From the NCBI GenBank assembly GCA_025355965.1, contig JANXYR010000084.1:1-37620 (forward strand): DNA of 37,620 bases. Reading direction: 5' to 3'. Under the pieces are notes generated by a model. The model was given only the letters and a program-made list of their open reading frames with translations, ran no database searches and had not been told where the DNA came from. This DNA comes from Geobacteraceae bacterium. Its GTDB lineage: Bacteria; Desulfobacterota; Desulfuromonadia; Geobacterales; Pseudopelobacteraceae. Positions 15,803-37,620 of the stretch are shown here, one piece after another. Every line of letters begins with the position of its first letter. The stretch's first letter is position 1. The position numbers were made by a program, and so were the translations under genes.

Positions 15803-16279
15803 CTACTCGTATTTTATATCGATAATTTCGTATTCTTTTGTTCCAGAAGGGACTATCACCCTGACTGAATCATCAAGCTTATGGCCGATCAGAGCTTTTC
15901 CTACAGGCGATGTGCAGGATATCTTGCTCAGTTTTATATCAGCCTCATCTTCTCCTACAATCTTGTAGGTTACCTCTTCTTCCGATAACGTATCGTAGAC
16001 GGTCACCGTGCAGCCAAACACAACTTTATCCGGTTTCATGCCTGATAGATCAACAACGTGCGCACGGGCAAGCTTGCCGTTAATTTCCTGAATACGCCCT
16101 TCAATAAAGCCCTGACGGTTTTTAGCAGCATCGTATTCCGCATTTTCAGACAGATCGCCGTGATCGCGAGCTTCAGAAATATCCTGGATTACCTTGGGAC
16201 GTTCTTCACGGACAAGTCGCTTTAATTCCTCTTGTAGCGATTCAAAGCTCTCTTTTGTTAGTGGTATTGAATGGGACAT
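15803..16279 (-). CDS. greA: Transcription elongation factor GreA
   Basis: GreA enters the secondary channel of RNA polymerase and stimulates cleavage of backtracked RNA. The 158-residue protein has the usual two parts: an N-terminal coiled coil (about residues 1-75) with acidic tip 'EARDHGDLSENAEYDAAK', and a C-terminal FKBP-like domain ending 'TKEYEIIDIKYE'. The tip residues D and E contact the catalytic Mg. It lies downstream of carB, separated by a roughly 100-base gap that holds the two-hairpin element. greA next to carB is a familiar arrangement in Geobacter relatives (from memory). Confidence 0.96.
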   Translation of the reverse strand: MSHSIPLTKESFESLQEELKRLVREERPKVIQDISEARDHGDLSENAEYDAAKNRQGFIEGRIQEINGKLARAHVVDLSGMKPDKVVFGCTVTVYDTLSEEEVTYKIVGEDEADIKLSKISCTSPVGKALIGHKLDDSVRVIVPSGTKEYEIIDIKYE

Positions 16280-16315
16280 CGAGTAGTCTGCTCCTATGAA
16301 AAATAATTCAAATGC

Positions 16316-16391
16316 CCTGTTAAACAGGATAAGTGCGTTAACGAAGCTATTTTCTACAATAAACCGCAGAAAATAGCTTCTAACTTACTAA
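16316..16391. repeat. Two-hairpin structured element, copy 1 (overlaps carB stop)
   Basis: Hairpin 1 is CCTGT-TAA-ACAGG (16316-16328). ATA follows, then a compound hairpin. In that hairpin AGT/ACT and GTTA/TAAC form the outer stem, with a GC/TT internal loop and an AC bulge. GAAGCTATTTTCT (16343-16355) pairs with AGAAAATAGCTTC (16368-16380). The unpaired bases match copy 2 (36905-36968), while the stem bases differ in a compensatory way. The right end covers the last carB codons and its stop (TAG 16382-16380). The element is not a simple terminator, since it lacks a U-tract. Confidence 0.7.
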
Positions 16392-19300
16392 AAGATAATC
16401 CTGAATCGGCTTGACGCTTACATCCTGAGTCTGCAAAGAAATAATACTATCAGCCGCAGCTTTTGCACCGGCAACAGTCGTATAATACGCAAGGCCATGC
16501 ATCAAGGCCTCTCGCCGGATTGAAAAAGAATCAGCTACCGCCTGAGCACCATGGGTGGTATTAAACACTAACTGAACCTCTCCGTTCTTGATGGCATCAA
16601 CTATATGCGGACGCCCTTCCAGCACCTTATTAATGCGCCGGACGGAAATCCCCTTTTCTTCAAGAAATTGGGCTGTGCCGCCGGTTGCCAGAATACCGAA
16701 TCCGGATTTATACAGTTTTTCAGCAGCGCTGACAACATGTTTCTTGTCAGCATCCCGCACACTGATAAAGACATTTCCGGATAGCGGCAGCTTTACATTT
16801 GCCCCAAGTTGCGATTTGGCAAATGCTTCGGCAAACGTTTCACCGATCCCCATGACTTCTCCGGTTGATTTCATTTCAGGCCCCAGCAGGGTATCGACAC
16901 CAGGGAATTTTACAAACGGAAAGACCGCTTCTTTTACAGAAATATGCTTTGGAATGATATCGTTGATTATACCCAACTCTTTAAGGGTTTTGCCGGCCAT
17001 GATGCGAGCAGCAATTTTAGCAAGCGGACGTCCGGTCGCCTTGGAGACAAATGGTGATGTGCGGGAGGCGCGGGGATTTACCTCCAGAATATAGACGACA
17101 GTGCCTTTGACCGCGTACTGTACGTTCATTAACCCTATAACATTCAACTCAAGTGCCATCAAAACCGTCTGGCGACGAATCTCTGCAACTATTTCCTGGC
17201 TGATAGAATATGGTGGCAGGCTGCAGGCTGAATCTCCGGAATGGATACCCGCCTCCTCAATATGCTCCATAATTCCGCCAATCACCACATCAGTCCCGTC
17301 ACAAAGCGCGTCAACGTCGATTTCAATCGCCTCATCCAGAAAACTGTCTATCAAAATAGGATGTTCCGGAGAAACCAGCACTGCTGTTTTCATATAGCGT
17401 TGCAGGTTTTCCGCATCATAGACGATTTCCATCGCGCGGCCACCCAGTACGTAAGAGGGACGGACTACAACCGGGTAGCCAATACGTTCCACAACTTTTT
17501 CCGCTTCCTCAAAAGAACGGGCCGTACCGTTTTCCGGTTGAAGTAGACCTAATTTATGAAGCATTTCCTGGAACCGCTCACGATCCTCGGCTCGATCAAT
17601 CGCATCCGGTGACGTTCCGATAATCGGTACGCCGGCTTTCTCCAAGGCAACCGCCAGCTTAAGCGGTGTCTGTCCACCAAACTGGACAATCACGCCGACA
17701 GGCTTCTCGATAGCAACAATTTCAAGCACATCTTCGAGAGTTAACGGCTCAAAATATAGCCGATCCGATGTATCATAATCGGTAGAAACCGTTTCAGGGT
17801 TGCAGTTGACCATGATGGTCTCATAGCCATCTTCAGCCAACGCGAAGGCACCATGCACGCAGCAGTAATCAAACTCAATCCCCTGCCCAATCCGGTTTGG
17901 CCCTCCACCCAGAATCATGATTTTTTTCCGGTCTGTCGGTGCGGCTTCACACTCTTCCTCATAGGTAGAATACATGTATGGGGTATAGGCAACGAACTCG
18001 GCGGCACACGTATCAACGCGCTTGTAAACCGGCCGTACAGCCAGCCTCCAGCGTAGCGCACGCACCTCATCTTCACTGCATCTCCAGAGTTGCGACAAAA
18101 ACTTGTCTGAAAAACCATACTGCTTGGCTTCACGTAGTACAGCCGTGCTAACATCCGCAAGAGAAAGCAACTTTAGCTCATCCTCTTTTTCTATAATCTG
18201 ACGAATATTGTGCAAGAACCATGGATCAATGGCAGTATGTTTCTGAATTTCCTCCACGCTCATTCCGCTACGCAGGGCATCGCCGACATACCAGAGCCTG
18301 TCTGCGTTCGGTACGCGAAGTTTTTCCAGCAGCAACTGTTGTTCCTTACCGGTCAGAGCCCGTCTCGTTTCACTGCCGAGTTCAAACATTCTGGAGTCAA
18401 AACCGCTAACTCCGATCTCAAGCGACCTGATCGCTTTCTGGAATGATTCCTTAAAGGTCCGTCCAATAGACATGACTTCACCAACCGACTTCATCTGCGT
18501 GGTCAGGGTTGCATCGGCAGCCGGAAACTTCTCAAAAGTAAAACGCGGAATTTTAGTAACAACATAGTCAATGCTCGGTTCGAAACAGGCTGGTGTTTCG
18601 CGGGTTATATCGTTGGTGACTTCATCCAGAGTATAACCGACCGCCAGTTTGGCAGCGATTTTAGCAATCGGGAAGCCTGTCGCCTTAGAGGCAAGCGCCG
18701 ATGAGCGCGACACCCTTGGGTTCATCTCTATTACAACAAGACGCCCGTCTCGGGGATTAATGCCAAACTGGATATTGGAGCCGCCGGTATCAACACCGAT
18801 TTCACGAATAATCTTCAGCGAAGCATCGCGCAGAATCTGGTATTCCTTATCGGTCAGGGTTTGGGCTGGAGCAATAGTAATTGAATCACCGGTATGCACT
18901 CCCATCGGATCAAAATTCTCGATCGAGCAGATAATTACGACATTGTCAGCGGTATCGCGCATAACTTCCAGCTCGTACTCTTTCCAGCCGATGACCGATT
19001 CCTCAATAAGTATTTCATCAGTCGGTGAAGCATCGATCCCCCCCACCGCCATTTTTTCATACTCTTCAAGGTTATAGGCAATACCGCCGCCACTTCCCCC
19101 AAGGGTGAATGAAGGCCGAATGATGGCCGGAAAACCTATGGTTTTGATAACCTCCATCGCCTCTATATAGTTGTGAGCCAAGCCAGAGTTAGGGACTGCC
19201 AGTCCAATTTTCTCCATTGCCGCCTTGAAAAGTGTGCGGTCCTCAGCTTTCTTGATTGCCGGAAGTTTGGCGCCTATTAGCTCCACGCCGAATTTTTCCA

Positions 19301-19622
19301 GAATACCCATTTCGGCAACAGCTACGGCGGTATTTAACGCCGTCTGGCCGCCCAGCGTCGGCAACACAGCATCAGGGCGTTCCTTCTCGATTATTTTGGC
19401 AAGAATTTCCGGTGTCACCGGCTCAATATAAGTTCGGTCGGCAAAATCTGGGTCAGTCATAATGGTTGCAGGGTTACTGTTAAGCAGTATAACCTCGTAC
19501 CCCTCTTCCTTTAATGACTTGCAAGCCTGAGTACCGGAATAGTCAAATTCGCAGGCCTGCCCTATGACAATCGGGCCGGCACCAATGATGAGGATCTTCT
19601 TGATATCAGTTCTTTTAGGCAT
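16380..19622 (-). CDS. carB: Carbamoyl-phosphate synthase large subunit
   Basis: CarB makes carbamoyl phosphate from bicarbonate, ammonia (passed from CarA) and two ATP. The 1080 residues match the family length. Two homologous ATP-grasp halves are visible: the first starts '[20 protein letters not shown]', and the second repeats the pattern from about residue 570 as '[20 protein letters not shown]'. The C-terminal allosteric MGS-like domain holds '[17 protein letters not shown]'. AAGGAG lies about 10 bases upstream of ATG 19622. It is separated from carA by three unrelated genes on the same strand. The last residues 'DYLLVS' are encoded inside the two-hairpin element, so the original C terminus may have been replaced. 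Confidence 0.97.
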
Positions 19623-36256: not shown

Positions 36257-36748
36257 ATGCAACATACAATATCAGTTATAGTTGAAAACGATTTCGGCGT
36301 GCTATCACGTGTAGCCACTCTTTTTTCCGGTCGCGGGTTCAACATCGAGTCGTTGTCAGTGGCCCCAACCAACGAAGATGGGCTGTCGCGAATGACTATC
36401 GTTACTCGTGGCGATGCTCAGATTCTAGAGCAGATAAACAAGCAGCTTAACAAGCTGATAGATGTACTCAAAGTGCTCGACTTCAGTGACGGCAGTGCCA
36501 TAGAGCGTGAACTTGCCCTTATAAAAGTTTCCGCAGAAGATGATGCCCGCGCCGAGGTATTGAGGGTAGTTGATATCTTCCGCGCCAAGATTATCGATGT
36601 CACTCCTAAGTCCTACACTATTGAAGCGACCGGGAATCCGTTAAAGATTGATGCAATCCTTGATCTGCTACGGCCACTCGGGCTGAAAGAGGTCGTACGC
36701 ACCGGTTCAGTTGCCATAGGGCGAGGGGCCAAGGGGTGGAATGGGTAG
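36257..36748 (+). CDS. ilvN: Acetolactate synthase small (regulatory) subunit
   Basis: The 163-residue subunit has an N-terminal ACT domain ('ISVIVENDFGVLSRVATLFS', then 'FNIESLSVAPT'), which binds valine for feedback inhibition and activates the large subunit. A C-terminal ACT-like domain follows (about 84-160). Length and pattern match IlvH/IlvN of the longer type. GGAGGGTT lies upstream of ATG 36257. The strong terminator right after the stop ends the ilvD-ilvB-ilvN unit. Confidence 0.95.
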   Translation: MQHTISVIVENDFGVLSRVATLFSGRGFNIESLSVAPTNEDGLSRMTIVTRGDAQILEQINKQLNKLIDVLKVLDFSDGSAIERELALIKVSAEDDARAEVLRVVDIFRAKIIDVTPKSYTIEATGNPLKIDAILDLLRPLGLKEVVRTGSVAIGRGAKGWNG

Positions 36749-36779
36749 GAGAACAGCAGTTATTGCGTTATTGTTCCAG

Positions 36780-36804
36780 CCGCCCGGAAACGGGCGGTTT
36801 TTTT
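36780..36804 (+). terminator. Rho-independent terminator after ilvN
   Basis: CCGCCCG (36780-36786), loop GAAA, CGGGCGG (36791-36797), followed by seven T. This is a textbook strong terminator and separates ilvN from ilvC. Confidence 0.9.
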
Positions 36805-36904: not shown

Positions 36905-36968
36905 TCCAGATTAACTGGATAAGTGCGTCAACGAAATTATTTTTGAAAAATAATTTCTGACTTACTAA
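36905..36968. repeat. Two-hairpin structured element, copy 2 (ilvC leader)
   Basis: Hairpin 1 is ATCCAG-ATTAA-CTGGAT (36904-36920). ATA follows, then the outer stem AGT/ACT and GTCA/TGAC with the same GC/TT internal loop and AC bulge as copy 1. The core GAAATTATTTTT (36933-36944) pairs with AAAAATAATTTC (36946-36957). GATAAGTGCGT and CTTACTAA are shared with copy 1, while stem bases co-vary. It lies 51 bases before the ilvC start. Confidence 0.7.

Positions 36969-36994: not shown

Positions 36995-37620
<626 letters not shown>

Follow-up and report, generated by a model that had tools for sequence, protein, structure and literature searches.

A dispersed two-hairpin repeat in Desulfobacterota genomes, probably a REP/PATE-like element mobilised in trans as a folded single DNA strand

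The REP sequences of Escherichia coli contain a conserved AA/GC mismatch in their stem, which is needed by the transposase TnpA-REP (PMC8266576). The CGTC-tagged REP super-family comprises REP groups for which, as described in PMC3733652, no dedicated transposase is known, and PATEs are presented as derivatives of IS200/IS605 that consist of the ends only (PMC7290912). In Geobacter and Pelobacter genomes, which belong to the same order as the host studied here, intergenic palindrome-based multicopy families have been reported and treated mainly as possible regulatory elements in the papers concerned (PMC2700814, PMC2996986, PMC3543383).

Here, we describe a two-hairpin element found at two places in a window of 37,620 nucleotides (the whole stretch of DNA analysed, contig JANXYR010000084.1 of a Geobacteraceae bacterium). 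Its copies are dispersed, covary in their stems and have been inserted nearly silently without target-site duplication, and their presence or absence differs between relatives. The explanation that we favour, with somewhat more confidence than doubt, is a REP/PATE-like family of non-autonomous mobile DNA of about 60-80 bases, moved as a folded single strand.

Layout, folds and stem covariation

Throughout, F denotes the strand on which the element was first described and R its complement. The features of the window are as follows.

36905..36968, plus strand: copy A, 64 bases, in the 5′ leader of ilvC; covariance-model match of 78.8 bits
36906..36918, plus strand: hairpin 1 of copy A (CCAG-ATTAA-CTGG), from sequence and fold
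36919..36921, plus strand: ATA linker from hairpin 1 to hairpin 2 of copy A; ATA in 36 of 45 own-genome copies
36922..36966, plus strand: hairpin 2 of copy A, with AGT, a GCxTT internal loop, GTCA, an AC bulge and the GAAATTATTTTT stem, from sequence and folds of both strands
36965..36968, plus strand: CTAA of copy A, the right end on F (TTAG, the left end on R), a sharp family border in the border profile
16315..16391, plus strand: copy B, between greA and carB; covariance-model match of 99.8 bits
16316..16328, plus strand: hairpin 1 of copy B, from sequence and fold
16332..16389, plus strand: hairpin 2 of copy B, from sequence and folds of both strands
15803-16279, minus strand: greA (Pfam GreA match, ORF list)
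16380-19622, minus strand: carB (Pfam CPSase match, ORF list), whose stop codon (16380-16382) falls within copy B
36257-36748: acetolactate synthase small-subunit gene (ALS_ss_C match)
36778..36799, plus strand: terminator-like hairpin 3′ of the acetolactate synthase small-subunit gene and upstream of the ilvC leader
37019..37618, plus strand: ilvC, the gene downstream of copy A, running past the end of the window (KARI_N, 245 bits)

On F, the element consists of hairpin 1 (CCTG-loop-CAGG), the ATA linker, hairpin 2 and a trailing AA; hairpin 2 comprises, in order, AGT, an internal loop of GC opposite TT, GTTA with an AC bulge next to it on the 5′ side, and a long stem rich in A+T that is closed by a variable loop. 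The preliminary description had proposed this layout for both places, and sequence, covariance model and single-stranded DNA folds bear it out at 36905-36968 and 16315-16391. Folded as single-stranded DNA, the two hairpins reach z = -7.45 (copy A) and -4.89 (copy B) against shuffles, and the opposite strands fold equally well (-7.57 and -5.44), giving the full drawing including the 2x2 internal loop; on the minus strand, hairpin 2 of copy A begins AGT-AA-GTCA and finishes TGAC-GC-ACT.

The unpaired bases initially seen to be shared by the two copies recur across the 45 aligned own-genome copies: beside the ATA linker, the AC bulge is present in 41 and the GC/TT loop in 26, the next commonest version of this loop being a pairable AC/GT (6/45). 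A further set, of 104 copies in other genomes, was drawn from 89 of at least 117 loci containing an exact 19-base core word; the 28 loci left out include some orthologous, nested or edge copies. Because this set was fetched by an exact word, part of its 5′ arm is fixed by construction, and since orthologous copies are still present in it, its counts are not fully independent. The GC/TT loop (AA opposite GC on R) occurs in 90 of these 104 copies, its 5′ side on F being fixed by the search word.

In an Rfam scan of the window, tRNA was the only family at gathering score, and the best match at the element was weak (18.9 bits, where the gathering score is 54), in agreement with the first reading, which had recognised no known riboswitch. 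A scan of four further loci returned only a cobalamin riboswitch (L043:1673-1860, minus strand), about 100 bases away from the nearby copy.

Compensatory stem changes, first noticed between copies A and B, hold across the family. Among the 45 own-genome copies, both sides have changed in 18 of 22 pairs, a value that none of 500 shuffles attained; doubly changed cells number 100 against 27 in shuffles, 88.0% of cells pair against 77.6%, and no shuffle (0/500) reached any of the five covariation measures. As the copies are related by descent, these shuffle figures are not probabilities; yet when partners were slid by 1-3 columns, compensation was lost, and such slid controls, which retain the relatedness, score far lower. 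The 104-copy set, with one arm partly fixed by the search word, concurs. The family has many copies with compensation far above chance, so that neither outcome that would have spoken against the preliminary description (two copies only, or many whose stem differences do not compensate) was obtained, and the proposed selection on a folded RNA or single-stranded DNA is supported by the covariation.

Mismatches within the stems carry information on the strand. On F, A-C mismatches (G-T on R) outnumber G-T mismatches by 42 to 22 in the own-genome copies (P=0.017) and by 102 to 62 in all 148 copies (P=0.002), whereas the 104-copy set, in which the search word skews the counts of wobbles and unpaired bases, gives P=0.057 on its own. 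The excess is present in all four gene orientations but reaches significance by itself in just two of them, R-codirectional (P=0.042) and convergent (P=0.039). Since the covariance model favours G-U on F, the A-C excess runs against any alignment bias, and the wobble asymmetry suggests that R is the strand that folds. No clear replication-strand bias emerged from GC skew among 34 own-genome copies (21 by the skew at third positions, 19 by plain skew).

Distribution of the family and occupancy of the ilvC leader

Most of the sequences compared are MAG contigs, and all copy counts are lower bounds. In the host genome, blastn found 25 places, and a covariance model built from nine copies found at least 44 at E<1e-3 and at least 62 at E<=1 (best 150 of 717 candidates scored), so that the two places of the preliminary description have become at least 44. 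Matches at E<=0.01 occur in 31 of 58 genomes, the host included, with at least 78 copies in the richest among the candidates listed. Counted in the same way, among the candidates listed, 28 of 37 genomes within the genus have matches, from 1 to at least 78 copies each, and the remaining nine congeners have no copy, while outside the genus 3 of 21 genomes have matches. An evenly drawn sample of 297 genomes from the phylum yielded at least 11 with a match at E<=1e-4, from six families. The exact 19-base core was located in at least 117 stretches of named records, with hosts that include Geobacteraceae, Desulfuromonadaceae, Pelobacter sp., Pelotalea chapellei (DSM 13688, copy L100), Smithella, Syntrophaceae and Desulfobacterales MAGs; the exact core word was not found in viral contigs, and a consensus-like copy had no match in plasmids or phages. 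A second dispersed repeat (CCCTCTCCCTGAGGGAGAGGG...) was seen at L263:14025-14128 (G000:C74), for which G015 gave many matches and G003 some.

Counted with their orientation and neighbours, as the preliminary description had proposed, the copies proved to be dispersed beside unrelated genes in both orientations: the 142 with both neighbours called comprise 68 R-codirectional, 31 F-codirectional, 31 divergent and 12 convergent cases.

The placement of copy A before ilvC had invited the interpretation of a leader regulator, that is, a cis-acting RNA such as a riboswitch, an attenuator or a protein-binding RNA. The copy does lie between a promoter-like region and ilvC, it folds well, and three relatives (G021, G010 and G024) retain a copy in the same orientation in their ilvC leader. 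Searching 24 same-genus relatives with the ilvN-ilvC junction, however, we read an element-free leader in 12 congeners, with G017 also empty by match coordinates; the leader of G006 contains a decayed remnant in which hairpin 2 is destroyed, and one contig of G002 has an opposite-orientation copy about 6 bases from the insertion point of the others. This count leaves aside G004 and G013, whose sequences are too short, and G007, G008, G011 and G022. Together with the dozens of copies next to unrelated genes in both orientations and the lack of any Rfam family at threshold at the element, these leaders make a regulatory role very improbable. Of the original interpretation, a folded nucleic acid under selection stands and a dedicated ilvC regulator does not; as part of the explanation favoured here, and with the same modest confidence, the ilvC copy is best regarded as an insertion in a leader that does not need it.

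The closest relative, G015, has no ilvC copy, whereas a very similar one is carried by G021, G010 and G024, which are more distant; the favoured explanation must therefore also call on exchange, a second hit or precise loss. One MAG, G002, has two ilvN-ilvC junctions (G002:C9 and G002:C278), one occupied and one empty by coordinates, which may reflect bin contamination.

Insertion sites and the stop-codon pattern

Three own-genome sites and one nested insertion show that the element inserts exactly, with no target bases duplicated or lost. Copy A of the host (G000) has GCGTA on its left and TAAGGTTTGACC on its right, against ACGTA^TAAAGTTCGACC in G019, whose empty leader reads ACGTATAAAGTTCGACC and has the same length minus the insert. 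At C74:62514, read on F, the element stands between GTTGCCTGA and GAGGGAGG, against the empty GTTGCCTGAAAAGGAG in G012, and lies directly 3′ of a TGA stop and 5′ of the following gene's Shine-Dalgarno sequence. At C44:2325, it separates two convergent genes that have overlapping stops in G015 (CCTTAAGCGATG), and both genes retain a stop. The nested copy, in MAG G2_21 (L177), was compared with an orthologous insert-free copy in BP5.bin86 (L115): 75 bases replace 1, between flanks that are 97.4 and 98.4% identical, and the insert is a variant sub-family copy lying in the hairpin-2 loop of another copy. Two of five own-genome sites are less clean, C6:46051 having about 12 bases beyond the family borders and C74:55558 having diverged flanks. 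The variant sub-family, which has a pairable AC/GT foot, was observed in hairpin-2 loops at L036, L124, L173 and L177, and in degenerate form beside L025.

Border profiles of 148 copies place the left end on R at TTAG, with columns of 1.5-1.8 bits against at most 0.45 bits in the flank, and the right end at GGG, next to which a YTAG/YTAA-like tetranucleotide is partly conserved. The other flank positions are near random, T-rich before TTAG and weakly A-rich past the other end. In F terms, a partly conserved CTAR target in the left flank is followed by an element terminating in a strongly conserved CTAA. The R-end tetranucleotide is TTAG in 38 of 45 own-genome and 86 of 104 other copies, and GTAG in 1/45 and 4/104, respectively. 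Tandem copies have one border tetranucleotide in common, and neighbouring copies within 200 bp are direct repeats in all eight pairs (8/8).

Two further explanations were weighed. Short, non-coding, palindromic and multicopy, with hairpin 2 arms that could serve as terminal inverted repeats, the element might be an ordinary MITE of a DDE transposase; four clean sites without target-site duplication disfavour such enzymes, hairpin 1 is situated beyond the inverted repeats and at just one end, and the paired arms covary base by base, so we judge this origin improbable. Integron attC sites are folded single strands with extrahelical bases and GTTA/TAAC-like core boxes. With its folded single strand, extrahelical bases and GTTA/TAAC boxes, the element might be read as a recombination site of this kind, an idea to which we give next to no credence: the box order is reversed relative to the attC consensus, and the copies are single dispersed units between ordinary genes, with no cassette arrays in the loci read. 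Both the DDE-MITE and the attC readings were rejected on these grounds.

With gene borders taken from a simple purpose-made gene caller, gene starts lie within 25 nt of a copy in 69 of 157 cases, against 52.4 expected under uniform placement (sd 4.0), and stops lie inside a copy or at its border in 45 of 121, against 25.2 expected (sd 3.9). Copies cluster at Shine-Dalgarno sequences and stop codons. When an upstream gene ends inside the element (n=38), it does so at TTAG in 31 cases, at the next-frame TAG in seven and in the third frame in none (P=1.3e-9 against equal thirds), and the far border has a stop triplet in 20 of 30 cases with genes ending inside, compared with 37 of 112 elsewhere (P=0.0014). 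It follows from these gene-end frames and far-side stops that an element entering at a stop codon tends to have an in-phase stop on either side. Copy B belongs to the minority type, carB terminating at a TAG 12 bases inside the element.

The same clustering could be expected of a mobile arrival that has been exapted as an intercistronic RNA hairpin and kept at stop/Shine-Dalgarno junctions for mRNA stability or translation uncoupling. The excess of nearby starts and of stops inside or at the border, the predominance of R-codirectional copies and the retention of old orthologous copies (e.g. L014, L044, L115 and L177) are all compatible with this. However, copies also sit between convergent genes, nine congeners lack any copy among the candidates listed, and target choice alone accounts for the in-frame stop pattern; exaptation is accordingly considered unlikely, if less so than a DDE MITE.

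For the favoured single-strand element, the mechanism that we infer by analogy with IS200/IS605 or REP is one in which a putative HUH/Y1-type enzyme, acting in trans, would cut and join the folded strand. On F, insertion would take place 3′ of a CTAR-like tetranucleotide, and the far end would be formed by a CTAA that the element supplies; on R, it would land before YTAG/YTAA while itself beginning with TTAG. With a stop codon as the target, the upstream gene would end at a new in-frame TAG, and since the downstream Shine-Dalgarno sequence stays intact as well, the insertion would be nearly silent.

If this is true, compact operons hold a mobile repeat that enters at stop codons almost harmlessly, because it carries a replacement stop. 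It would also provide a simple rule for the build-up of hairpin repeats between tightly packed genes and account for the resemblance of such repeats to conserved regulatory leaders when a single genome is viewed. Through its stem covariation, a mobile DNA hairpin can mimic the signature commonly regarded as proving that an RNA is functional.

The mobilising enzyme and comparison with known systems

Y1 transposase genes are common in the genomes examined. At 32 Y1 loci, no copy was found within 1.5 kb or as far as the contig reaches. Conversely, 1.07 Mb of sequence around copies contained three Y1 genes, 2.6-4.4 kb off, none adjacent and near the chance rate, and in six further genomes the nearest Y1 was about 4.5 kb from a copy among the matches listed. 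The number of Y1 genes is uncorrelated with the number of copies (Spearman -0.07, P=0.69 across 37 genomes); no Y1 match was obtained in two genomes holding at least 14 copies. An autonomous version, with arms more than 130 bases apart, was sought in the fetched loci, where only truncated or contig-edge copies turned up. An apparent Y1 neighbour at L036 proved to be an AAA/DUF4143 ATPase. If the mechanism is right, a defined search for the mobilising enzyme follows.

Two other kinds of repeat were also noted. A Y1 gene (L009:1130-1920, G000:C1) and a Y1 fragment (L010:1640-1790, G000:C19) adjoin repeats TATTCCGGGGACAG, which resemble the GGGGWSAS motifs of TIR-flanked tyrosine transposases as given in PMC3733652. 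At L182:1-760 (JAUYEO010000012.1), a larger MITE-like unit, present twice and about 260 bases long, has the inverted ends GTAAAAAGTC / GACTTTTTAC and holds a copy of the element.

A bolder proposal, possible but at present doubtful, is that TTAG-tagged two-hairpin elements transposing as single strands form a separate class, patchily distributed in Desulfobacterota, with their own putative enzyme, a stop-rebuilding target choice (stop codon plus Shine-Dalgarno sequence) that extends to overlapping operon genes, and a loop-inserting sub-family.

Among described systems, the element resembles E. coli REP (RAYT/TnpA-REP) in being a short intergenic hairpin repeat with many copies, and on R its internal loop of AA opposite GC is as in E. 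coli REP, following the account in PMC8266576. The foot tetranucleotides, TTAG here and GTAG in E. coli REP, are similar tags. Unlike in REP, however, the TTAG overlaps the foot of the stem, a GT bulge and a second hairpin are added, close copies form direct tandems instead of inverted BIME pairs (8/8 pairs within 200 bp), and no RAYT gene flanked by copies (a REPtron) was present in the loci examined. The CGTC-tagged REP, as far as described in PMC3733652, resemble the element in being REP-like repeats with no known transposase of their own; they differ from it in tag, structure and host range alike, and the main text of that paper mentions neither Deltaproteobacteria nor Pelobacter under the terms searched. 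The four core words of the element were found in no paper, the supplements of the Geobacter papers lying outside that search; the element might coincide with one of the multicopy families aligned there.

With PATEs, as characterised in PMC7290912, the element shares two hairpins at or near its ends, insertion at a tetranucleotide, the lack of a target-site duplication and a presumed mobilisation in trans. It may depart from them in two points: no autonomous IS with its ends was present in the loci read, and hairpin 1 abuts the cut site, so that a left guide tetranucleotide could not be accommodated 5′ of the palindrome. In the literature searched, the Geobacter supplements aside, the family, its tag, its two-hairpin form and its stop-codon rule were not found, while its REP/PATE-like kind is known; the element is probably a new Desulfobacterota family of this kind, moved in trans as folded single-stranded DNA.
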